Shown: positions 6,211 through 55,287 of the stretch, piece by piece
How positions within the stretch are numbered: the first letter of the stretch is position 1
How the letters are laid out: every line of letters starts with the position of its first letter
Origin: Flavobacterium celericrescens
Lineage (GTDB): Bacteria > Bacteroidota > Bacteroidia > Flavobacteriales > Flavobacteriaceae
DNA: 64,000 nucleotides
Assembly (NCBI RefSeq): GCF_011392075.1
Contig: NZ_JAAJBV010000001.1
Location: 372,001-436,000, forward strand
Reading direction: 5' to 3'
Notes under the pieces: model-generated
Database searches by the model: none
The model's input: the letters and a program-made list of their open reading frames with translations, nothing else
Told to the model about the DNA's origin: nothing
Made by a program: the position numbers and the translations under genes

Positions 6211-8055
6211 CTAATTCTTAATAACTAAATCTGTTAACTTAATTTCTTCAATTTTTTTATTAGAATTAGCAACATAAATAGCTAATTTATAATTCCCTTT
6301 AGGAATATTATCTAAATTTATTTGTGATTGGAAACCAGACATGTCATAATTAGTGTTGTGGTCTTTAAAAAAAGAGGTAATATCTTTTCTAATTATTTGT
6401 TCCGATTCAATATTTATTTGACTACTATCATTAACTAAAAAAAGCTCTAATATATTATCTTTTGATTCAATGCCTTTCACGTAAGCCCATCCGCTAATAA
6501 TAAATTTATTATCTTTATTCTCAAAAACTTCGATATTTGATTCAATAATACTCTGTTTTATTTTGAAGTTTAACTTAGATATATCAATTTTAGGCTTATT
6601 AGTTTTTAACTCATATTTTTTTACCCAAACATCATGAGCATTAAGATTTTTTTCAACATAAAAATATTTATCTAAAAAATCAATTGTTGTTTGAGTTGGA
6701 TTATATATTCTTCCGTGTGCATCTATGTACCAAAATGCTTGTATTTTAGTTGTATCTAACTTTATTTCATCAACATAATTATCTAATGATTTATCTATTA
6801 ACTCATAGTTTACTTTTTTATTTTGTAAAAAGTACTTAAAATACCAACCTAAACTAGTAACAACTTTAGTTTTATTACTGTTGTTCTCTATAATAAAATT
6901 ACTTCCTTCTCTAAATTGAGATTTTGTAGTATTAAAATAATAATTTTTTACAAAGACAATATCGCTTATAGTAAAAATAAATAACATCAAGATAAAAGCA
7001 TATTGGATAATCTTATTTTTAAACTGTGTTATTCCAACTGATATTATTAATAATATAGCTGGTAATACAACTATAAAATATCTACTAATAATCATTGGTA
7101 CAGAAACATAAGATCTAATTAATGGAATTAATAATACTAGTGAAATCCAAGGCAATAGTATTATAAAAGAAAATAACATTTTATTTTCAACTATATTATT
7201 ATATTTTATTTCAAGATGATTTGTTTTAGATAGTTTTATAAAATATAATAATATAAAAATTCCTAATAATGATAATACTATTTCAGAATTTCCAAAAAAC
7301 TCTCTAAAAATCAATGTATAAACATCAACGGTTGGTGCTGGAATCCAAAATTCTTTTATTTCGGTTACCTTTATAAATATTTTTAAAGCAGGTATAAATA
7401 AAATTAAAACAATAATACAAGAAAACAGTGACTTCTTAAAAAAGTCTAACATGTTATTTTTTTTACTAATTAAAAAGAAAAAAAGTAAAACAAATAATTG
7501 AGAAAAAAAGACAAATAATCCAAAAAAGTGAGATAAAAGCATTAATCCTGTGCAAGAACCATAAATAATTGCATTTTTAAAGTTACTTATTTTAATATAT
7601 CTTACTAACCCATAAAATGATAGTATAGAAAAAAGAAAAAGTAAAATATAAGGTCTTGCTTCTTGAGAATAATATAAATGAAAAGAATTTATCGATAATA
7701 AAAAAGAAGCTATTAAAGCTACTTTTTTATTAAAAAGTTCTTTCGAAAACTTATAAAGAGCAAATATGGAAATAACTCCTAAAATTGCAGAAAACAATCT
7801 TGCAACTAAAGTCGTATATCCAAAAATTTTAAAAATAAAATACAATGAATAAAAATACAATGGAGGCATTTGCTCACCAGCCATTATTGCGCCATATAAA
7901 TCTGAGATTTTTGTGTTTGGATTTGATTCATTCATTGTGTGAATTTCATCTAACCATATACTTTGAAAATCAATATGATAAAATCTTAATATTGAACTCA
8001 AAAGCAATATAGAAAATAACCAATAATTGTTTTTTAACATGCTAAACAAATTCAT
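6211..8055 (-). CDS. GT39-like membrane glycosyltransferase (GT-C fold)
   Basis: Large polytopic protein, 614 residues from the ATG at 8055. Upstream in-frame starts at 8079 (ATG) and 8085 (TTG) would overlap the preceding gene, whereas 8055 leaves a 4-base gap. The first periplasmic loop carries the acidic motif WLDE typical of PMT/ArnT-like enzymes, followed by about 10 membrane helices and a C-terminal soluble domain of roughly 200 residues. Such enzymes use polyprenyl-phosphate-linked sugars as donors on the periplasmic side. The immediately preceding gene encodes a polyprenyl-phosphate-type GT2, a natural donor-making partner. The acceptor (lipid A, glycan or protein) is unknown. Confidence 0.75.
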   Translation of the reverse strand: MNLFSMLKNNYWLFSILLLSSILRFYHIDFQSIWLDEIHTMNESNPNTKISDLYGAIMAGEQMPPLYFYSLYFIFKIFGYTTLVARLFSAILGVISIFALYKFSKELFNKKVALIASFLLSINSFHLYYSQEARPYILLFLFSILSFYGLVRYIKISNFKNAIIYGSCTGLMLLSHFFGLFVFFSQLFVLLFFFLISKKNNMLDFFKKSLFSCIIVLILFIPALKIFIKVTEIKEFWIPAPTVDVYTLIFREFFGNSEIVLSLLGIFILLYFIKLSKTNHLEIKYNNIVENKMLFSFIILLPWISLVLLIPLIRSYVSVPMIISRYFIVVLPAILLIISVGITQFKNKIIQYAFILMLFIFTISDIVFVKNYYFNTTKSQFREGSNFIIENNSNKTKVVTSLGWYFKYFLQNKKVNYELIDKSLDNYVDEIKLDTTKIQAFWYIDAHGRIYNPTQTTIDFLDKYFYVEKNLNAHDVWVKKYELKTNKPKIDISKLNFKIKQSIIESNIEVFENKDNKFIISGWAYVKGIESKDNILELFLVNDSSQINIESEQIIRKDITSFFKDHNTNYDMSGFQSQINLDNIPKGNYKLAIYVANSNKKIEEIKLTDLVIKN

Positions 8056-8059
8056 TTTT

Positions 8060-9019
8060 TTAATTTTTAATATGTACATCTTCAATAAAATCTTTATAAA
8101 TTTTTGGCTTTGGTGCGCTAATATTTTTTCTTGAACTTAACTGTAACAATAGCACTATAAGTGTAACAGAAAACAACTGTAAAATTATCCCTGAAATAAT
8201 TAAAATTAAACTTGAAGCCCAACCAGGAATGGCATTATCTGTAAACAGTTTTTGATAAAGAATATACACAACTGAAAAGAAGCAGATTCCAATTCCATAT
8301 AACGAATATCTTAAAATTCTTAACGACAAAAAATCAAAATAAACTGCAATTGAGCTTAACCCGTGAATTATTAGGCTGTTGAAATTCATTTTAGAAATAC
8401 CTTTATAGCGTTTTCCTCTATCAAGCAATACTTTTTCATAAGGAATTTTAGACTGAATAATTCCACCGGAATAATGATTCCAAATATTGTTTTGATGAAC
8501 GACTTTAGAAAGTAGTTTTTTAGGTATTATACTAAAGTTTCCAAAACTAATTTTTTGTCCAGTTAAAAAATAAAACAAGTATTTGTAGAAAAAATAGCCC
8601 ACTTTAAAAAAAGTAGATTCTTGACGTTTTTTTCGTTGGGCAAAAATGATTTTCTTTACTTTTTCTTGTTCTGCTTTTTTGATTAATTCTTTTATGTCTT
8701 GGGGTTTATCTTCCCCATCACTATCCATCACCACGACAAAATCATAATCAGAAACTTCATTGCAAATATATTGTAAGCCAACAGCAATGGCTCTTTGATG
8801 TCCAATGTTTATTTTTAAATTTAAAACCGTTACAGGTATATTTTTGTAATCAAAATCTTCTGGAATATCTTCAGTAGAACCATCATTTACTGCTACTATA
8901 AAAAAATCGTAAACACTTAAATTTTGTTTTAAAAGACCAATCTCTTGAATCAAAACAGCAAAGCTTTCCCAATCATTATAAATAGGAGTTAAACAATAGA
9001 TATTTTTCTTTTGAATCAT
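8060..9019 (-). CDS. membrane-anchored GT2 glycosyltransferase (DPM1/ArnC type)
   Basis: 319 residues: an N-terminal GT-A domain with the NDGSTED segment near 45-51 and the metal-binding Asp99-Ser-Asp101, followed by two predicted membrane helices near 225-250 and 265-295. This layout is that of polyprenyl-phosphate sugar synthases such as ArnC, GtrB and bacterial Dpm1. It is 3 bases after the DUF2807 gene and 4 bases before the GT39-like gene, so the pair probably makes and uses one lipid-linked sugar. Which sugar cannot be told. Confidence 0.8.
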   Translation of the reverse strand: MIQKKNIYCLTPIYNDWESFAVLIQEIGLLKQNLSVYDFFIVAVNDGSTEDIPEDFDYKNIPVTVLNLKINIGHQRAIAVGLQYICNEVSDYDFVVVMDSDGEDKPQDIKELIKKAEQEKVKKIIFAQRKKRQESTFFKVGYFFYKYLFYFLTGQKISFGNFSIIPKKLLSKVVHQNNIWNHYSGGIIQSKIPYEKVLLDRGKRYKGISKMNFNSLIIHGLSSIAVYFDFLSLRILRYSLYGIGICFFSVVYILYQKLFTDNAIPGWASSLILIISGIILQLFSVTLIVLLLQLSSRKNISAPKPKIYKDFIEDVHIKN

Positions 9020-24787: not shown

Positions 24788-25219
24788 CTATTTACAAGCT
24801 ATTTTTTTTACACGATTAGCATGTCTTCCTCCTTCAAAAGGTGTGTTTAAAAAAGTATCTACCATTTCAATAGCTTGCTGAATAGAAGTATAACGCGCTG
24901 GAATGCTTAAAATATTTGCATCATTATGTTGACGTGCTAAAGCAGCAATTTCTTTTGTCCAACATAAAGCCGCACGAATGTCTTGATGTTTATTCACTGT
25001 CATAGCGATTCCGTTTCCTGAGCCACAAATTACAATTCCTAAATCAGCTTTTTTTGATTCCACATCATACGCTACTGGATGACCAAAATCAGGATAATCT
25101 ACACTATCAAAAGTATCTGTTCCGTGGTTAAAAACAGTGTGTCCTTTTTCTTCTAAAAATTGAACTATAGCTTTTTTGTAGTCTGGACCAGCGTGGTCAT
25201 TACCGATTGAAATTTTCAT
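24788..25219 (-). CDS. rpiB: ribose 5-phosphate isomerase B
   Basis: Interconverts ribose-5-phosphate and ribulose-5-phosphate in the pentose phosphate pathway. 143 residues, normal for RpiB. The GNDHAGPDYK start and the active-site Cys in CGSGNGIAM (near 65-73) with the His-Asn of QHNDANIL are present. It begins an operon with the metal exporter; its promoter overlaps the divergent promoter of the DUF1905 gene. Confidence 0.94.
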   Translation of the reverse strand: MKISIGNDHAGPDYKKAIVQFLEEKGHTVFNHGTDTFDSVDYPDFGHPVAYDVESKKADLGIVICGSGNGIAMTVNKHQDIRAALCWTKEIAALARQHNDANILSIPARYTSIQQAIEMVDTFLNTPFEGGRHANRVKKIACK

Positions 25220-25307: not shown

Positions 25308-25832
25308 ATGAAATTTCAAGGAAAAATAGACTCTTTTGCTGAAAACAATTTAGGACACGGACCATATATTGAAATTCCAGAAGATGTTTATAAAGAATTA
25401 TTAAAAACAACCATTGATAAACGTGTAAAATGTACTTTGAATAATACAATTACTGTAAGTAGAGCAATGGCTCCAAAAGGAAACTTCCATTATATATTGT
25501 TAAACAAAGAGGTTTTAAAAGAAATAAAAATAAATGTTGGTGATGCTGTTTTAGTAGAGCTTCAACCAGATGAATCTAAATATGGTATGCCAATTTCTGA
25601 AGAAATGGAAGAGGTTTTATTTAGTGATCCAGATGGAAGTAATTTATTTCACAAACTAACCCCTGGTGTGCAACGAACTCTTATTCATGTTATTAATAAA
25701 TTTAAAAGTTCTAACTTAAAAATAGAGCGCAGTTTTGTGATTTTGGAACACCTGAAAAAAAATAAAGGAAAAATAGATTTCAAACTTTTGCAAGAAGATT
25801 TTAAAAACTATCGAAACAATATGAAATTTTAA
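25308..25832 (+). CDS. DUF1905/YdeI-like protein
   Basis: 174 residues from the ATG at 25308; earlier in-frame starts would put the promoter inside the gene. The N-terminal part (about 1-90), with a small beta-barrel pattern around KVKCTLNNT and DAVLVELQPD, fits DUF1905. The C-terminal part is a helical segment of the type seen in YdeI/OmpD-associated bacteriocin-protection proteins. Cytoplasmic; molecular function unknown. It is followed by the longest gene-free stretch of the window. Confidence 0.7.
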   Translation: MKFQGKIDSFAENNLGHGPYIEIPEDVYKELLKTTIDKRVKCTLNNTITVSRAMAPKGNFHYILLNKEVLKEIKINVGDAVLVELQPDESKYGMPISEEMEEVLFSDPDGSNLFHKLTPGVQRTLIHVINKFKSSNLKIERSFVILEHLKKNKGKIDFKLLQEDFKNYRNNMKF

Positions 25833-26456
25833 TCTATTTCATTAAAAATCAACAAAGTATTCAACTTTCCACTATGATTTTTATCATATGTTAATTCTTT
25901 TTTGTAAATCATTGATAATCAGATAAATTTAAATTAACAACATTTGTTAACAACTTTAGATAGAAAATTAGAACTTTTTTTAGGTTGTATTGAAAAAATA
26001 TGTAATCAAAAATTGAATTTAAAAAATCAAGGTTAGTTATCTTTTTTTGTTGAAAATTTATTAATAGTTTTTAGGTAGTTATTAACACAAATCTCTTATA
26101 AAAGTTATTTACAAAATAATAATAAAATCAACTATGAACATCTGTTGATAAGTTGATTATTAAAATTTTATATAAACTAATTTTCAATTCTTTACAATAT
26201 TATTTAATTGTTAATTTCGTTGTATAAGTATCAATAACTTTTAAACAACACTATTATAAAAAAACTTATTCCACATATTAACACGCTATAATAACCATCA
26301 TAAATTTAAATTTAATTAAAAATATTTTTTATTGTTTTTAATAAATGTTGAAAACTTCTTTTTTTCAATTTTGTTATAATTTGGTTAATTCTAATTTACG
26401 AATTCTTATTTCTAATTTCTTCTTCGTAACTTTCAACTTTAATTAGAAATGATACA
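25833..26456. other. candidate replication origin (oriC) in a 624-bp gene-free AT-rich stretch
   Basis: No convincing gene is seen. The stretch is very AT-rich and holds several DnaA-box-like words: TTATTAACA (26079-26087), TTATTTACA (26105-26113), TTATCAACA on the minus strand (26143-26151, one mismatch to TTATCCACA), and a degenerate TTATTCCACA at 26266-26275. Genes to the left for 20 kb are mostly leftward and those to the right for 22 kb mostly rightward, as expected on both sides of an origin. Three exact parS sites lie 16-18 kb away. dnaA is not in the window, and none of the boxes is perfect, so this is a hypothesis. The right end must also hold the rnr promoter. Confidence 0.45.
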
Positions 26457-28634
26457 ATGAGTAAGAAACCAAAAAAATTAGGTAAAAAACCAAAAGATTT
26501 TACTGCACAAATATTTAAAATACTTTCAAGAGAACCTTCTAAATCTTTTAATTACAAGCAAATAGCTGCTGTTTTAGAGTTAAGTGATACCAAAAGCCGA
26601 AACGAAATAATTAGAGATTTAAAAATACTTAAAGCACAAGATAAAATTCACGAAACAGAAATTGGAAAATATCAAATTATTTCCAAAGCCGAATATTACG
26701 AAGGAATTGTAGATATGACGTCTCGTAAAACAGGTTATTTTGTTTGTGACGAATTAGAAGACGATGTTTTTATTCCGTTTATCAACTTGAATCATGCTTT
26801 AGATGGTGATAAAGTAAAAGCGTATATCTACAACAGAAGAAGTTCACGTAAACCAGAAGCTGAAGTTTTAGAAATTTTAGAACGTAAAAAATCAGAGTTT
26901 GTTGGAGTTATTGATGTGCAAAAAAACTTTGCTTTCGTAACGACTGCGAATGCTAAAATGTATACTGATATCTTCATTCCAAAAAATAAAATTGGTGATG
27001 CAGAACACGGAGATGTTGTTTTAGTAACATTAGAAGATTGGCCTAAAAAAGCCGATTCTCCTTTTGGTTCCGTGATTAAAGTGTTAGGAAAACCAGGTGA
27101 ACATAACACCGAAATTCATGCGATTTTAGCTGAATATGGTTTACCGTATGATTTTCCAATTGAAGTAGAAGCTTATGCAAATAAAATAGATACTTCAATT
27201 ACTGAAGAAGAAATTAAAAAGCGTCGCGATATGCGTGATGTTTTAACGTTTACGATTGACCCGAAAGATGCAAAAGATTTTGATGATGCGTTATCGTTTC
27301 AGGTTTTAGAAAATGGAAATTACGAAATCGGAGTTCATATTGCAGATGTTTCGCATTATTTACAAGAAGGAACAATTCTAGATGATGAAGCTTATAAAAG
27401 AGCAACTTCGGTGTATTTAGTTGATAGAGTGGTTCCAATGTTACCAGAAGTGTTATCCAACTTTGCTTGTTCACTTCGTCCACATGAAGAAAAATATACC
27501 TTTTCAGCAGTTTTTCAACTGAATAATAAAGCAGAAGTGTTAAATGCTTGGTTTGGACGAACCGTAACGTATTCTGATCAACGTTTTGCGTATGAAGAAG
27601 CTCAGAGTATCATCGAAACTAAATCAGATGCAATTCCAGCCGAAATTTCATTAACTGGAAGCGAATATATCGTTCCAAAACCAATTGTTGATGCTACTTT
27701 AAAAATGGATGAATTAGCTAAAATTCTTAGAAGAAAAAGAATGGCAGCTGGAGCGATTTCTTTTGATAAAGTAGAAGTGAAATTCAATTTGAATGAAGAT
27801 GCGGAACCAATTGGAGTTTACTTCAAACAAAGTAAAGATGCTAATCATTTGATTGAAGAATTTATGTTATTAGCGAATAGAAAAGTAGCGGAATTCATTG
27901 GAAAACAGAAGAAAACTTTTATTTACAGAATTCACGATGAACCAAATGAAGATAAATTAATTAATCTTCAAACCGTGATTGCTAAGTTTGGTTATTCAAT
28001 CAATTTCCGATCTAAAAAAGATATTTCGAGTTCTTTGAATAATTTACTTTCAGAAGTTGTTGGTAAAAAAGAACAAAATTTAGTGGATACGCTTACGATT
28101 CGAAGCATGAGTAAGGCTGCTTATTCAACTGAAAATATTGGTCATTATGGATTAGCATTTGATTATTACAGTCATTTTACCTCACCAATTCGTCGTTATC
28201 CTGATGTTATGGCACACCGTTTGTTACAGTATTATATAGACGGCGGAAAAAGTGTTAGTGAAGAAGAATACGAAGAAAAATGTGAACATTCTTCACAAAT
28301 GGAAGCTTTAGCCGCTCAAGCAGAAAGAGATTCTGTCAAATACATGCAAGTAAAATACATGCAAGATCATAAAGATCAAGAGTTTTTAGGTGTAATTTCT
28401 GGAGTTACCGAATGGGGAATTTATGTGGAAATTATTGAAAATAAATGCGAAGGAATGGTTAGAATTCGTGAAATTAGAGATGATTATTACACCTTTGATG
28501 ACAAACAATATGCTTTAGTAGGTGAAGTTTCTAAAAATATTTTACAATTAGGAGATGAAATTTACGTTAAAGTAAAAAATGCCGATTTAGTGAAAAAACA
28601 ATTGGATTTTCATTATTTAAGAAAGAGAGAGTAA
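26457..28634 (+). CDS. rnr: ribonuclease R
   Basis: 3'-5' exoribonuclease of the RNase II/R family that degrades structured RNA. 725 residues: a basic N terminus with a winged-helix-like domain (about 10-75), cold-shock domains (about 80-230), the RNB catalytic domain with DPKDAKDFDDALS near 267-279 holding the metal-binding Asp residues, and a C-terminal S1 domain (about 640-723). Full length for the family. It is the first rightward gene beyond the putative origin, and the DUF2807 gene follows after 32 bases. Confidence 0.95.
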   Translation: MSKKPKKLGKKPKDFTAQIFKILSREPSKSFNYKQIAAVLELSDTKSRNEIIRDLKILKAQDKIHETEIGKYQIISKAEYYEGIVDMTSRKTGYFVCDELEDDVFIPFINLNHALDGDKVKAYIYNRRSSRKPEAEVLEILERKKSEFVGVIDVQKNFAFVTTANAKMYTDIFIPKNKIGDAEHGDVVLVTLEDWPKKADSPFGSVIKVLGKPGEHNTEIHAILAEYGLPYDFPIEVEAYANKIDTSITEEEIKKRRDMRDVLTFTIDPKDAKDFDDALSFQVLENGNYEIGVHIADVSHYLQEGTILDDEAYKRATSVYLVDRVVPMLPEVLSNFACSLRPHEEKYTFSAVFQLNNKAEVLNAWFGRTVTYSDQRFAYEEAQSIIETKSDAIPAEISLTGSEYIVPKPIVDATLKMDELAKILRRKRMAAGAISFDKVEVKFNLNEDAEPIGVYFKQSKDANHLIEEFMLLANRKVAEFIGKQKKTFIYRIHDEPNEDKLINLQTVIAKFGYSINFRSKKDISSSLNNLLSEVVGKKEQNLVDTLTIRSMSKAAYSTENIGHYGLAFDYYSHFTSPIRRYPDVMAHRLLQYYIDGGKSVSEEEYEEKCEHSSQMEALAAQAERDSVKYMQVKYMQDHKDQEFLGVISGVTEWGIYVEIIENKCEGMVRIREIRDDYYTFDDKQYALVGEVSKNILQLGDEIYVKVKNADLVKKQLDFHYLRKRE

Positions 28635-38763: not shown

Positions 38764-38881
38764 TTCATTAAATTTTGTGCAAAGATACGATTCCAATTTA
38801 GAAGTTAGAATTTAGATTTTAGAAAATCATTATGTTATTAACAATCCGATGCTGCAAATGTTAAGTTTCACTAAAAACCTA

Positions 38882-38912
38882 TTGACAATTCTAGGAAGAT
38901 GTTGTATTTTTA
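38882..38912 (+). promoter_or_regulatory. promoter for the DUF4175-ybeY operon
   Basis: TTG at 38882-38884 and TATTTTTA at 38905-38912 (one mismatch to TAnnTTTG) are 20 bases apart, close to the Bacteroidetes spacing; the start codon follows 27 bases later. Confidence 0.5.
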
Positions 38913-38939
38913 TCGGTTATAAACAGTATATCAACAATT

Positions 38940-42257: not shown

Positions 42258-42669
42258 TTTTAATTACGAAACAGATTTCGAGCTAGAAAACGAAACACAA
42301 TATGAAGATTGGATTTCTCGAATCATAGAATCAGAAGGATTTGATGAAGGAGAAATCAATTATATTTTTTGTGATGATGAATACTTGCATAAAATTAATG
42401 TTGAGTATCTAGATCATGACACATTAACTGATATCATTAGCTTTGATTACACAGTAGGAAATTTAGTACAAGGCGATATTTTTATTTCCATAGAGCGCGT
42501 TCAAGATAATGCCAATGATTTTAATGTTTCTTTCGATGAAGAATTGAAACGTGTATTGTCTCACGGTGTTTTACATTACTGTGGATATAAAGATAAATCT
42601 CCTAAAGACGAAGCATTGATGCGTTCAAAGGAAGAAGAAAAAATGAAAATGTTTCACGTGGAACATTAA
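42250..42669 (+). CDS. ybeY: endoribonuclease YbeY, rRNA maturation factor
   Basis: 139-residue UPF0054 protein acting in 16S rRNA 3' processing and ribosome quality control. The metal motif reads SHGVLHYCGYKDK: His105 and His109 are present, but the third ligand, normally His, is Asp115. This may be lineage-typical in Bacteroidetes and compatible with metal binding. The gene overlaps the DUF4175 gene by 8 bases. Its last codons (MFHVEH, residues 134-139) encode an exact parS site, so the C terminus is shaped by a DNA-binding sequence. Confidence 0.92.
   Translation: MISFNYETDFELENETQYEDWISRIIESEGFDEGEINYIFCDDEYLHKINVEYLDHDTLTDIISFDYTVGNLVQGDIFISIERVQDNANDFNVSFDEELKRVLSHGVLHYCGYKDKSPKDEALMRSKEEEKMKMFHVEH
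42650..42665. promoter_or_regulatory. parS site 1 (ParB/Spo0J binding)
   Basis: TGTTTCACGTGGAACA; its reverse complement TGTTCCACGTGAAACA is the B. subtilis parS sequence. It lies in the last codons of ybeY, 45 bases from a second copy. Confidence 0.9.
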
Positions 42670-42694: not shown

Positions 42695-42710
42695 TGTTTC
42701 ACGTGGAACA
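42695..42710. promoter_or_regulatory. parS site 2 (ParB/Spo0J binding)
   Basis: Second identical TGTTTCACGTGGAACA, in the gap between ybeY and mnmG, in the same orientation as site 1. Confidence 0.9.
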
Positions 42711-42725
42711 TAATATTTATAGAAG

Positions 42726-44597
42726 ATGTTTTTAAATCAATATGATGTAATTGTTGTGGGTGCTGGTCACGCCGGTTGTGAAGCTGCTGCTGCTGCTGCC
42801 AACATGGGGTGCTCTACGCTTTTGGTGACAATGAATCTTCAAAACATTGCACAGATGTCGTGTAATCCTGCTATGGGAGGAATTGCAAAAGGACAAATTG
42901 TGCGTGAGATTGATGCTTTGGGTGGATACTCTGGAATTGTTTCAGATAAAACTGCGATCCAATTCAAGATGTTGAACAAATCAAAAGGACCAGCTATGTG
43001 GTCTCCTAGAGTACAATCAGACAGAATGCGTTTTTCAGATGAATGGAGATCGATGTTGGAGAATACTCCGAACTTGGATTTCTACCAAGAAATGGTGGCT
43101 GGAATTTTGTCTGAGAATGGAAAGGTGGTTGGAGTGAAAACTTCTCTTGGAGTGGAAATCAAAGCCAAGGCGGTTGTATTGACAAACGGAACTTTTTTAA
43201 ATGGTTTGATCCATATTGGAGATAAACAATTTGGTGGTGGTCGTGCAGGTGAAAGTGCTTCTTTTGGAATCACAGAAGATTTGGTGAAATTAGGTTTTGA
43301 ATCCGGAAGAATGAAAACGGGAACTCCTCCACGTGTCGATGGTCGATCTTTGGATTTTTCTAAAATGGTGGAACAACCTGGTGATGAAGTTCCAGAAAAG
43401 TTTTCGTATTCTAATTTGACGGCTCCATTAAAAACACAACGCTCTTGTTGGATGTCGTATACTTCATTAGAAGTGCATGATATTTTACGTGAAGGTTTTG
43501 ATAGAAGTCCAATGTTCAACGGAAGAATCAAAAGTTTAGGCCCGAGATATTGTCCATCAATTGAAGATAAGATTAATCGTTTTGCAGATAAAGAACGCCA
43601 TCAGCTTTTTGTTGAACCTGAAGGTTGGACAACTTGCGAATATTACATCAATGGTTTCTCAACTTCGTTACCAGAAGATATTCAATTCAAAGCATTGCGC
43701 TCGGTTGCTGGATTTGAGAATGTGAAATTTTTCAGACCAGGTTATGCAATCGAATACGATTACTTCCCTCCTACGCAATTGCAACACACTTTAGAAACCA
43801 AGTTGGTTGATGGGTTGTATTTCGCAGGACAAATTAATGGAACGACTGGTTATGAAGAAGCAGCCTCTCAAGGTTTAATGGCTGGAATAAATGCAGCATT
43901 AAAAGTACAGAATAGAGAGCCGTTTATCTTAAAAAGAGACGAAGCCTATATCGGAGTTTTAATTGACGACTTAATTACAAAAGGAACAGAAGAACCATAT
44001 CGAATGTTTACTTCTCGTGCTGAATACAGAACGTTACTTCGTCAAGATAATGCTGATTTTAGATTAACACCAAAAGCTTTTGAAATTGGTTTAGCTAAAG
44101 AAGAGCGTTTGATTCGTATGGAACAAAAATTCTCTCAATCGGATGCGATGGTAAATTTCTTCAGAGAAACAAGTTTAAAACCTGAAGAAGCTAATCCAAT
44201 CTTAGAAGCTAAAGGTTCTGCTCCGATGAGTCAGCCTGATAAAATGTTCAAAGTGTTCTCTCGTCCGCAATTGGATTTGGAAGATTTTAGAAAATTCAAA
44301 AAAGTAGCGGCTTATATCGAAGAACATGATTTAGATCAAGAAGTAGTTGAGCAAGCCGAAATTCAAGTGAAATATTCTGGTTATATTGAAAAGGAAAAAA
44401 ATAATGCGGATAAGTTAACTCGTTTAGAAGATATGATAATACCGGATAATTTTAATTTTGATAAAATCCAATCCATTTCAATTGAAGCCAAACAAAAATT
44501 AAATAAAATTCGACCACGAACTATCGCACAAGCTTCTCGCATAAGTGGAGTTTCGCCAAGTGATATTTCAGTGTTATTAATATATATGGGTCGATAG
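42726..44597 (+). CDS. mnmG: tRNA uridine 5-carboxymethylaminomethyl modification enzyme MnmG (GidA)
   Basis: FAD-dependent protein that with MnmE modifies the wobble uridine of several tRNAs. 623 residues, normal length. FAD-binding GAGHAGCEAA near 12-21, the MSCNPAMGGIAKG segment near 46-58 and the GTPPRVDG motif near 200-207 are intact, with the C-terminal helical domain for MnmE/tRNA binding. mnmE is not in the window. The gene is flanked by three parS sites, consistent with its frequent location near chromosome origins. Confidence 0.96.
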   Translation: MFLNQYDVIVVGAGHAGCEAAAAAANMGCSTLLVTMNLQNIAQMSCNPAMGGIAKGQIVREIDALGGYSGIVSDKTAIQFKMLNKSKGPAMWSPRVQSDRMRFSDEWRSMLENTPNLDFYQEMVAGILSENGKVVGVKTSLGVEIKAKAVVLTNGTFLNGLIHIGDKQFGGGRAGESASFGITEDLVKLGFESGRMKTGTPPRVDGRSLDFSKMVEQPGDEVPEKFSYSNLTAPLKTQRSCWMSYTSLEVHDILREGFDRSPMFNGRIKSLGPRYCPSIEDKINRFADKERHQLFVEPEGWTTCEYYINGFSTSLPEDIQFKALRSVAGFENVKFFRPGYAIEYDYFPPTQLQHTLETKLVDGLYFAGQINGTTGYEEAASQGLMAGINAALKVQNREPFILKRDEAYIGVLIDDLITKGTEEPYRMFTSRAEYRTLLRQDNADFRLTPKAFEIGLAKEERLIRMEQKFSQSDAMVNFFRETSLKPEEANPILEAKGSAPMSQPDKMFKVFSRPQLDLEDFRKFKKVAAYIEEHDLDQEVVEQAEIQVKYSGYIEKEKNNADKLTRLEDMIIPDNFNFDKIQSISIEAKQKLNKIRPRTIAQASRISGVSPSDISVLLIYMGR

Positions 44598-44668: not shown

Positions 44669-44684
44669 TGTTTCACGTGAAACA
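44669..44684. promoter_or_regulatory. parS site 3 (ParB/Spo0J binding)
   Basis: TGTTTCACGTGAAACA is a perfect 16-base palindrome and matches the bacterial parS consensus. It lies between mnmG and the methyltransferase gene. Confidence 0.93.
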
Positions 44685-54135: not shown

Positions 54136-55287
54136 TTATGCGTTTTTATGTATTAATCTAGTTAATTTTATAGATAAATCGGTTAGAATTATTTTACTAT
54201 TCCCGTTTCTTTCAATGTGGTAAATAGCATCTTCTAATTCTTTGTAAATATCTGTAATATTTGCGCCATTTACAAACGGAGCAAATTTTTCCAATTCAAA
54301 TTTCGGAACTTTTGTTTCTAAGAAAACCAAATCATTGGCTTTATAATTGAGCAATAAAGCTTGTCTAAAGAAATGAATACAATAGTGTAAAAATTGTTTT
54401 TGAGTTTCTCTTCCTGTAGACGCAATGTTTTCGCTCCAAGCGATTAAATCGTTTATGGCTGCGGCATTTCCTTTAGCACGAAAAGCACTTCTCACCCATT
54501 CTACAAACCATTCGTCAAATGGAAATTCATCGTCTTCTTTTCTTAAAATATGTAAAGCTTTATTATAATTTCCTTCACTTTGATGTGCGATTTTTTTAGC
54601 AATAGTAGGCTCGCAGTTTTCACGTGAAACCAAAGCTTCGGCAATCACACTTTCACTCAAACCAATAAAATCAATTACTTGACAACGCGATAAAATGGTT
54701 TGCAACATATCGCTGGTGCTTTCGGTAATTAAAATGAAAACAGTTTTAGCTGGCGGTTCTTCTAATAATTTCAACAATTTATTGGCTGAAGCACCATTCA
54801 TCTTATCCGCCATCCAAATGATCATGACTTTGTAACCACCTTCGTATGCTTTTAACGCTAATTTTTTGTTGATTTCGGTTGCTTCGTCAACACCAATTAA
54901 ACCTTGTTTGTTCTGAATTCCAAGGTTTTTTAACCAATCAAACAAACTTCCATAAGGACTTTCGGTTAAAAATTGGCGCCATTCTACCATGAAATTATCA
55001 CTAACCGCATGACTTTTTATACTATCTGTGGTTGCAACCGGAAAAACAAAATGCAAATCGGGATGTGAAAAATGCTCAAATTTTAGATTACAAGCCGATT
55101 TTTCGCCTATATTTTCTCCGCCACCATTCCCACACAAAATATATTGCGCATAAGCAATCGCCATAGGAAGTGTTCCACAACCTTCTGGACCTACAAATAA
55201 TTGGGCGTGCGGAATTCTTCCGGCTTCGGCACTTTTTGTGAGGTGATTTTTAATATGATCTTGACCTAAAATATCTTTGAAAAGCAT
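54136..55287 (-). CDS. holB: DNA polymerase III delta-prime subunit
   Basis: Clamp-loader subunit, 383 residues. AAA+ fold with a degenerate P-loop (GPEGCGTL, no Lys), as expected for delta prime, which does not hydrolyse ATP, and the SRC motif (ILSRCQVIDF near 193-202) that completes the neighbouring ATPase site. The C-terminal helical collar domain follows. A parS-like sequence (13 of 16 bases) lies inside at 54616-54631. DoxX-like gene follows directly. Confidence 0.93.
   Translation of the reverse strand: MLFKDILGQDHIKNHLTKSAEAGRIPHAQLFVGPEGCGTLPMAIAYAQYILCGNGGGENIGEKSACNLKFEHFSHPDLHFVFPVATTDSIKSHAVSDNFMVEWRQFLTESPYGSLFDWLKNLGIQNKQGLIGVDEATEINKKLALKAYEGGYKVMIIWMADKMNGASANKLLKLLEEPPAKTVFILITESTSDMLQTILSRCQVIDFIGLSESVIAEALVSRENCEPTIAKKIAHQSEGNYNKALHILRKEDDEFPFDEWFVEWVRSAFRAKGNAAAINDLIAWSENIASTGRETQKQFLHYCIHFFRQALLLNYKANDLVFLETKVPKFELEKFAPFVNGANITDIYKELEDAIYHIERNGNSKIILTDLSIKLTRLIHKNA
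54616..54631. promoter_or_regulatory. degenerate parS-like sequence inside holB
   Basis: The core GTTTCACGTGAAA is intact on the minus strand, but three outer positions differ from TGTTTCACGTGAAACA. It is coding DNA, so chance or weak ParB binding are both possible. Confidence 0.3.

Follow-up and report, generated by a model that had tools for sequence, protein, structure and literature searches.

A candidate chromosomal replication origin with variant DnaA-box-like words in the AT-rich gap upstream of rnr in a Flavobacterium

The stretch of DNA analysed here, referred to as the window, is 64,000 nucleotides long and corresponds to positions 372001–436000 of contig C1 of a 2.80-Mb Flavobacterium genome assembled in 38 contigs. 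On a tree of rnr sequences, the genome is nearest to a Flavobacteriaceae bin, Flavobacterium cheniae, and F. odoriferum. The window contains an intergenic gap between a DUF1905 gene and rnr that is flanked by the following genes:

24788–25219, minus strand: rpiB (Pfam LacAB_rpiB), in most relatives the gene to the left of the slot
25308–25832, plus strand: DUF1905 gene, between rpiB and the conserved block; at this place in few relatives
25833–26456, no strand: candidate oriC, the intergenic space separating the DUF1905 gene from rnr; 624 bp, 82.4% A+T
26457–28634, plus strand: rnr, encoding ribonuclease R (Pfam RNB and cold-shock domains), the right flank

The first-pass annotation of this DNA described the gap as the longest gene-free space of the window and as very AT-rich. 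Both descriptions hold: the runner-up measures 448 bp, and when the 591-kb contig is scanned in 50-bp steps, the five 600-bp segments richest in A+T all overlap the gap. The ranking of gaps and the counts of gene directions are based on a list in which 56 of 69 open reading frames were kept, nested and overlapping ones were removed by hand, and the start of the DUF1905 frame was shifted to the ATG at 25308. Gene direction switches at the gap, as had been noted: 18 of 19 genes between 5.6 and 25.2 kb point left and 14 of 18 between 25.3 and 48.7 kb point right, in place of the 18 of 20 and 14 of 17 counted originally. The bias is weaker across the whole window (18 of 24 genes on the left side and 18 of 32 on the right side), and the orientation of genes turns again past 48.7 kb, which counts against reading the gap as an origin. 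In most relatives, rpiB and rnr lie side by side and point away from each other. A DUF1905 gene is positioned between rpiB and the block at loci L041, L072, L075, L076, L077, and L085 (short loci are uninformative), and it is probably a newcomer directly beside the origin. A gene similar to that of the DNA polymerase III delta-prime subunit (Pfam DNA_pol3_delta2) is located at 54136–55287, 28 kb from the candidate origin.

The gap contains a conserved noncoding block of roughly 450 bp, in which an array of DnaA-box-like words is combined with an AT-rich tract. The block was recognized in alignments of 74 rpiB–rnr gaps and of 24 diverse blocks. One hundred loci with both rpiB and rnr yielded 94 distinct gaps (measured to the DUF1905 gene if present) with a median length of 1061 bp. 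The conservation of individual sites was scored as the presence of a TTWTYAACA word no more than 6 bp from the aligned position in 73 relatives. The block is organized as follows:

25905–26362, plus strand: conserved noncoding block with box array and AT-rich tract
25945–25953, minus strand: DnaA-box-like site TTGTTAACA; exact in 62% and with at most one mismatch in 100% of 73 relatives
26058–26066, plus strand: weaker box-like site TTATTAATA; at most one mismatch in 70% of 73, exact in none
26079–26087, plus strand: DnaA-box-like site TTATTAACA; exact in 88% and at most one mismatch in 100% of 73 relatives
26105–26113, plus strand: box-like site TTATTTACA; at most one mismatch in 90% of 73, exact in none
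26143–26151, minus strand: DnaA-box-like site TTATCAACA, the box of the first-pass annotation; exact in 33% and at most one mismatch in 88% of 73
26209–26217, minus strand: box-like site, degenerate here, AAATTAACA; exact in 67% and at most one mismatch in 95% of 73
26275–26283, plus strand: box-like site ATATTAACA; exact in 18% and at most one mismatch in 89% of 73
26285–26297, plus strand: strongly conserved word GCTATAATAACCA, from the alignments of 74 gaps and 24 blocks
26298–26345, no strand: AT-rich tract of low stability, predicted DNA unwinding element
26346–26354, minus strand: DnaA-box-like site TTTTCAACA by the AT-rich tract; exact in 53% and at most one mismatch in 99% of 73

Many relatives have about 270 bp of additional, partly conserved sequence between the block and rnr, which is missing here (between 26362 and 26373).

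The origin had originally been argued from DnaA-box-like words. The one-mismatch box at 26143–26151 is real, but the canonical word TTATCCACA is present only at chance level: its one-mismatch matches number 22 in 64 kb, about 0.2 are expected per 624 bp, and the gap contains neither an exact TTATCCACA nor a TTWTNCACA word, that is, no canonical box cluster of the kind expected of an oriC. The argument was weak because the array consists of variant boxes, TTWTYAACA. Four copies of this word in a 500-bp stretch inside the gap form the densest cluster of the contig, where the next best clusters have three, and compare with an expectation of 0.16 per 627 bp; the word was picked after inspection of the relatives and then counted in the gap. 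Among the 74 gaps of 600–1400 bp, TTATTAACA occurs in 62, TTATCAACA in 53, and TTTTCAACA in 52, whereas shuffles give expectations of 5.9, 2.9, and 6.2, respectively; common descent adds to the excess. The spacings of the boxes repeat across species, for example 134 bp followed by 64 or 119 bp. The TTWTNNACA words of 24 blocks (set A1) have YA at positions 5–6 in 60 of 89 cases and NC in two; the corresponding numbers for 14 blocks (set A2) are 33 and three of 43. Because the canonical boxes are missing from the gap, the claim of an origin relies on where the block lies, on its single copy, and on its architecture and conservation.

The AT-rich tract at 26298–26345 adjoins the last box, and it is probably the DNA unwinding element. 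The stretch 26296–26345 ranks among the window's six 50-bp stretches of lowest stability, although others are less stable still, for example that at 7.2 kb. The nearest-neighbour energy of the segment 6889–7288 is as unstable as that of the origin gap, yet the segment lies within the open reading frame 6211–8085. A search for DnaA-trios of a basal unwinding system, as worded in PMC7561715 (3'-[G/A]A[T/A]-5', more than three triplets, preceding GC cluster), identified one tract of four, against a shuffle mean of 1.13, and no GC cluster ahead of it, so that trios do not exceed the shuffled sequences. A looser trio rule, 3'-NAN-5', is given in PMC8287927.

Domain IV of the DnaA of this genome contains the motif DRDHATV, whereas the matched chains of the DnaA structures 1j1v, 8btg, 1l8q, 2hcb, and 3pvp have RDHTTV or KDHTTV. 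The position equivalent to residue 435 of E. coli is occupied by Ser or Thr in all 27 loci read from Bacteroidota outside the family. It is Ala in all three Flavobacterium loci, including that of this genome, and in 28 of the 29 further genera read within the family, with Ser in G111 (L285) as the sole exception; the residue was read in the best-scoring 29 of 59 other family genomes, and G088 yielded no locus. According to the title of a 1997 study by Sutton and Kaguni, cited in PMC11511705, Thr435 reportedly confers sequence-specific binding. Residue 435 is listed among the base-reading residues of DnaA (PMC7561715, PMC5043019). In the dnaA loci outside the family, canonical words number 57 and variant words 25 in 84 kb, compared with 26 and 33, respectively, in 102 kb inside the family. 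In several of the loci outside the family, the canonical boxes are clustered at the end at which the gene is expected to start (the starts are not mapped). These observations suggest a matched change of DnaA and its box, which is a fair hypothesis.

Asymmetric nine-letter words in both orientations beside an AT-rich tract constitute the usual plan of an oriC, which is also that of the array in the gap. This agreement and the different residue 435 in Flavobacteriaceae make it unlikely that the place is an origin in which TTWTYAACA binds another protein and DnaA contacts other words of the gap, even though TTWTYAACA departs from the E. coli consensus TTWTNCACA (PMC7561715) and its contact with DnaA is predicted from sequence.

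The distribution of the block was determined using R1, a sequence-only model with 358 positions that was built from 24 sequences including the block of this genome. The 24 loci, seven from a set of 30 and 17 from a set of 80, match by construction. R1 matches positions 26022–26373 of the window with an E-value of 3e-44, the matched sequence being part of the model. The search of the whole genome resulted in a single strong match (E 8e-42), followed by one with an E-value of 3; since the block itself is inside the model, the weight lies on the latter value. R1 matches 74 of 80 rnr loci of the larger set, including 57 of the 63 that are outside the model, among them loci of Aquimarina and Psychroserpens, and 26 of 30 rnr loci of the second set (own genome included), 19 of 23 outside the model. 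There is no match in L080, L139, L140, L142, L099, and L141 of the larger set, the last two of which are cut short, nor at rnr in L045, L046, L068, and L070 of the second set. When 20 relatives were searched as whole genomes, the best match had an E-value of 0.005 or lower in all of them. A single place with an E-value of 1e-9 or lower was found in 19, and G027 has a weak match of E 0.005. One conserved locus per chromosome is therefore present in this genome and in 19 of 20 relatives. Weak R1 matches adjoining the block and on its opposite strand are taken to reflect the likeness among the boxes rather than second origins.

The 20 relatives come from 60 drawn genomes and were partly picked for an odd-looking rnr gap. 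The first ten comprise the odd cases G009, G011, and G027, with a short box-less rnr gap, and G022, with rnr far from parS, together with the one-contig genomes G010, G036, G042, G045, G051, and G058. The second ten were hand-picked among genomes without an rnr locus.

The cumulative G−C count of the whole contig drops to a minimum at position 25123 of the window (C1:397123), 0.7 kb from the gap, and climbs afterwards. The minimum of −7050 is much deeper than the 0.1% quantile of −4347 in block-permuted controls. The bootstrap 95% range of its position is approximately −20 to +16 kb for 2-kb blocks and wider for larger blocks. With a precision of about ±20 kb, the skew alone cannot separate the gap from the mnmG/parS region at a distance of 17 kb. 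The first-pass annotation had named a minimum at another place, such as near a dnaA gene, as an outcome that would refute the origin. This outcome did not occur: the contig minimum is at 25123, and dnaA is located on another contig, C2. The 3.5-kb dnaA locus was rejected as an origin, as it contains neither an R1 match nor TTATCCACA; it nonetheless holds two TTATGCACA and five scattered TTWTYAACA words.

The skew of the one-contig relative G036 was calculated from 35 sampled stretches of 20 kb. Interpolation places the minimum at 870 kb, and the contiguous segment 830–910 kb has its local minimum at 871,230. The matching block is positioned at 870,725–871,077, i.e., at the skew minimum. The skew maximum is at 2.51 Mb, and the half-way point from the block is at 2.62 Mb. 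Sixteen of 17 samples are negative on one arm of the chromosome and 15 of 18 are positive on the other.

All six parS-like sites of the genome (at most two mismatches) are located inside the window. Those with the best scores lie on either side of mnmG at 42.6–44.7 kb and are three in number; the nearby parS sites reported before are real and near-perfect, but 16–18 kb from the gap:

42650–42665, no strand: parS, one mismatch, from word search
42695–42710, no strand: parS, one mismatch, from word search
42726–44597, plus strand: mnmG (gidA; Pfam GIDA), between parS sites
44669–44684, no strand: parS, perfect to the searched word, from word search

A stricter parS word is present in 60 of 61 genomes of the genus.

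The block is found at several addresses. Among the 20 relatives searched as whole genomes, it is positioned beside rnr in 12 and elsewhere in seven, three of them by gltX, and G027 has only the weak match; because the relatives were chosen partly for oddity, the ratio 12:7:1 is not an estimate of frequency. In the 12 rnr-side genomes (G005, G007, G010, G016, G017, G025, G029, G036, G042, G045, G051, and G056), the block is located 0.2–0.42 kb upstream of rnr and always has the orientation of rnr. In G009 and G011, it is positioned between gltX and a DUF4175-like gene, and there is none at rnr (loci L045 and L046). It lies between gltX and ybeY in G058, and about 9 kb from rnr in G020 and G041, in G020 between rnr and parS. 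Distances from the block to parS refer to genomes in the parS listing, among which the parS of G041 is not included. The genome studied here has an empty counterpart of the address used in G009 and G011:

38797–38939, no strand: second slot, 143 bp and empty here, separating the divergent gltX and DUF4175-like genes; occupied by the block in G009 and G011

R1 has no match in this 143-bp gap; the DUF4175 assignment is a Pfam match just under the cut-off.

In G022, rnr and parS are separated by approximately 72 kb. The rpiB–rnr gap of G022 is about 0.2 kb long and contains no box, and the box array is located at 999,433–999,813, adjoining ybeY–parS–mnmG. The block of G022 keeps its orientation relative to mnmG, not relative to rnr. 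The cumulative skew is lowest at 970–1000 kb and about 1,200 higher at rnr. The exact fine minimum, 974,513, is 25 kb from the block, which counts against the correspondence. Two stretches near 1041.5–1042.4 kb equal the block in the count of TTWTYAACA (four in 600 bp). The region C1:1041531–1042662 of G022 contains TTATTAACA and TTTTTAACA words at regular steps of 350–390 bp and is repeat-like; R1 does not match these stretches. Taken together, the skew low of G022 tracks the block, not rnr.

The rnr tree has 94 rows, from which G018, G020, and G041 are absent. G009 and G011 group with F. enshiense in a single, well-supported clade within the rnr-side species, and G022 and G058 are placed outside it. 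F. enshiense (L080) was labelled as gltX only because it has no block at rnr and is related to G011. Five rows have no located block: L139, L140, L142, L070 (G060), and L068 (G027). The gltX label changes three times on the tree if these rows are counted as not-gltX, and twice if they are dropped or if four of them are counted as gltX. On this tree, the block must have changed its place at least twice, however the unlocated rows are counted. Loci L081, L082, and L110, titled Chryseobacterium gleum and Rhizobium sp., fall within Flavobacterium on the same tree and are probably mislabelled metagenome bins.

Two papers on Flavobacteriaceae report an Ori-Finder oriC next to mnmG (PMC12843772, PMC11278836). 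In the Mariniflexile paper of this pair, the position of dnaA did not fit the skew, and a figure legend labels mnmG as ter. The array described here lies in the same mnmG neighbourhood; unlike those calls, the present analysis pinpoints the array, which is 16 kb from mnmG in this genome and has variant boxes. That the origin is instead positioned beside mnmG and parS at 42.6–44.7 kb, with the rnr gap merely close, agrees with the published calls in Algorimicrobium and Mariniflexile, with the three best parS sites, with the skew range of about ±20 kb, and with G022 and G018, in which the block itself is located about 0.5 kb from parS. However, the sole strong R1 match of the genome is at the rnr gap, the flanks of mnmG are just 56 and 135 bp long and have no R1 match, the skew minimum is 17 kb away, and that of G036 coincides with the block, which together make an mnmG-side origin improbable. 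It is less probable still, and very unlikely, that the block serves rnr (or rpiB) as a regulatory or 5' untranslated region, or that it is an RNA gene. The block is upstream of rnr in most loci examined, but away from rnr in seven of the 20 relatives searched whole, which were selected in part for this. An RNA gene was rejected, as no Rfam match at the block exceeds the gathering score, either in the window or in four relatives, and RNAalifold yields hardly any consensus fold (−1.5 kcal/mol over 374 columns).

The gap at 25833–26456 is thus very probably the chromosomal oriC of this Flavobacterium, with predicted binding of DnaA, as the first-pass annotation had proposed. The skew turns beside the gap, within about ±20 kb, the conserved array is single, all six parS-like sites are in the region, and the block is away from rnr in some relatives. 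DnaA, encoded elsewhere, would bind the variant TTWTYAACA boxes over approximately 400 bp in both orientations and would oligomerise toward the AT-rich tract at about 26298–26345, by the last box. The opened tract would admit the helicase, and two forks would depart. The parS cluster at 42.6–44.7 kb would let ParB gather and segregate the newly copied origin region.

The differences among relatives may be read jointly. The chances are about equal for and against a history in which residue 435 changed from Ser/Thr to Ala together with the boxes, from TTATCCACA to TTATYAACA, and in which the origin block moved at least twice. The moves would run between gene-free places in the rnr–gltX–mnmG–parS neighbourhood. 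With at least two moves, the origin would behave as a portable cassette.

The general plan of a bacterial oriC, DnaA boxes and an AT-rich unwinding element, is described in PMC5043019 and PMC7561715. The candidate shares with it the box cluster, the AT-rich tract, the skew minimum, the regional parS, and one strong copy; it differs in having TTWTYAACA for TTWTNCACA, in not being positioned by dnaA, and in neighbours that vary among related species. Epsilonproteobacterial origins have lineage-specific boxes tied to helix 5 of DnaA domain IV, with residue 435 as a candidate (PMC5043019). Both have a box word of their own, but the Epsilonproteobacterial mark is T at box position 5, whereas here it is A at position 6 together with Ala at 435. 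The origin of Blattabacterium Bge, also of the Flavobacteriales, was likewise set by skew, and was put in dapB; unlike the genome studied here, Bge is described as being without dnaA and DnaA boxes (PMC2768785). A DnaA-type oriC is already known as a general kind, and the present analysis adds the array itself, the variant word, the other addresses, and the DnaA residue. Among the open-licence literature matches listed, none names rnr or TTWTYAACA boxes as an origin, and none of the listed papers with the nine-letter words is, by title, on a Bacteroidota origin; the locus is not claimed to be unpublished.

The gap provides a sequence-level candidate origin for a large genus, in a family for which the predictions cited here point to the mnmG neighbourhood. 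Because of the variant box word, standard DnaA-box searches would miss this origin. DnaA and its boxes in this family offer a natural test case for a joint change of a protein and its sites. Since related species have the origin at different addresses, the effects of the origin may be separated from those of neighbouring genes, and the origin piece may be usable for replicating plasmids in laboratory strains of Flavobacterium.
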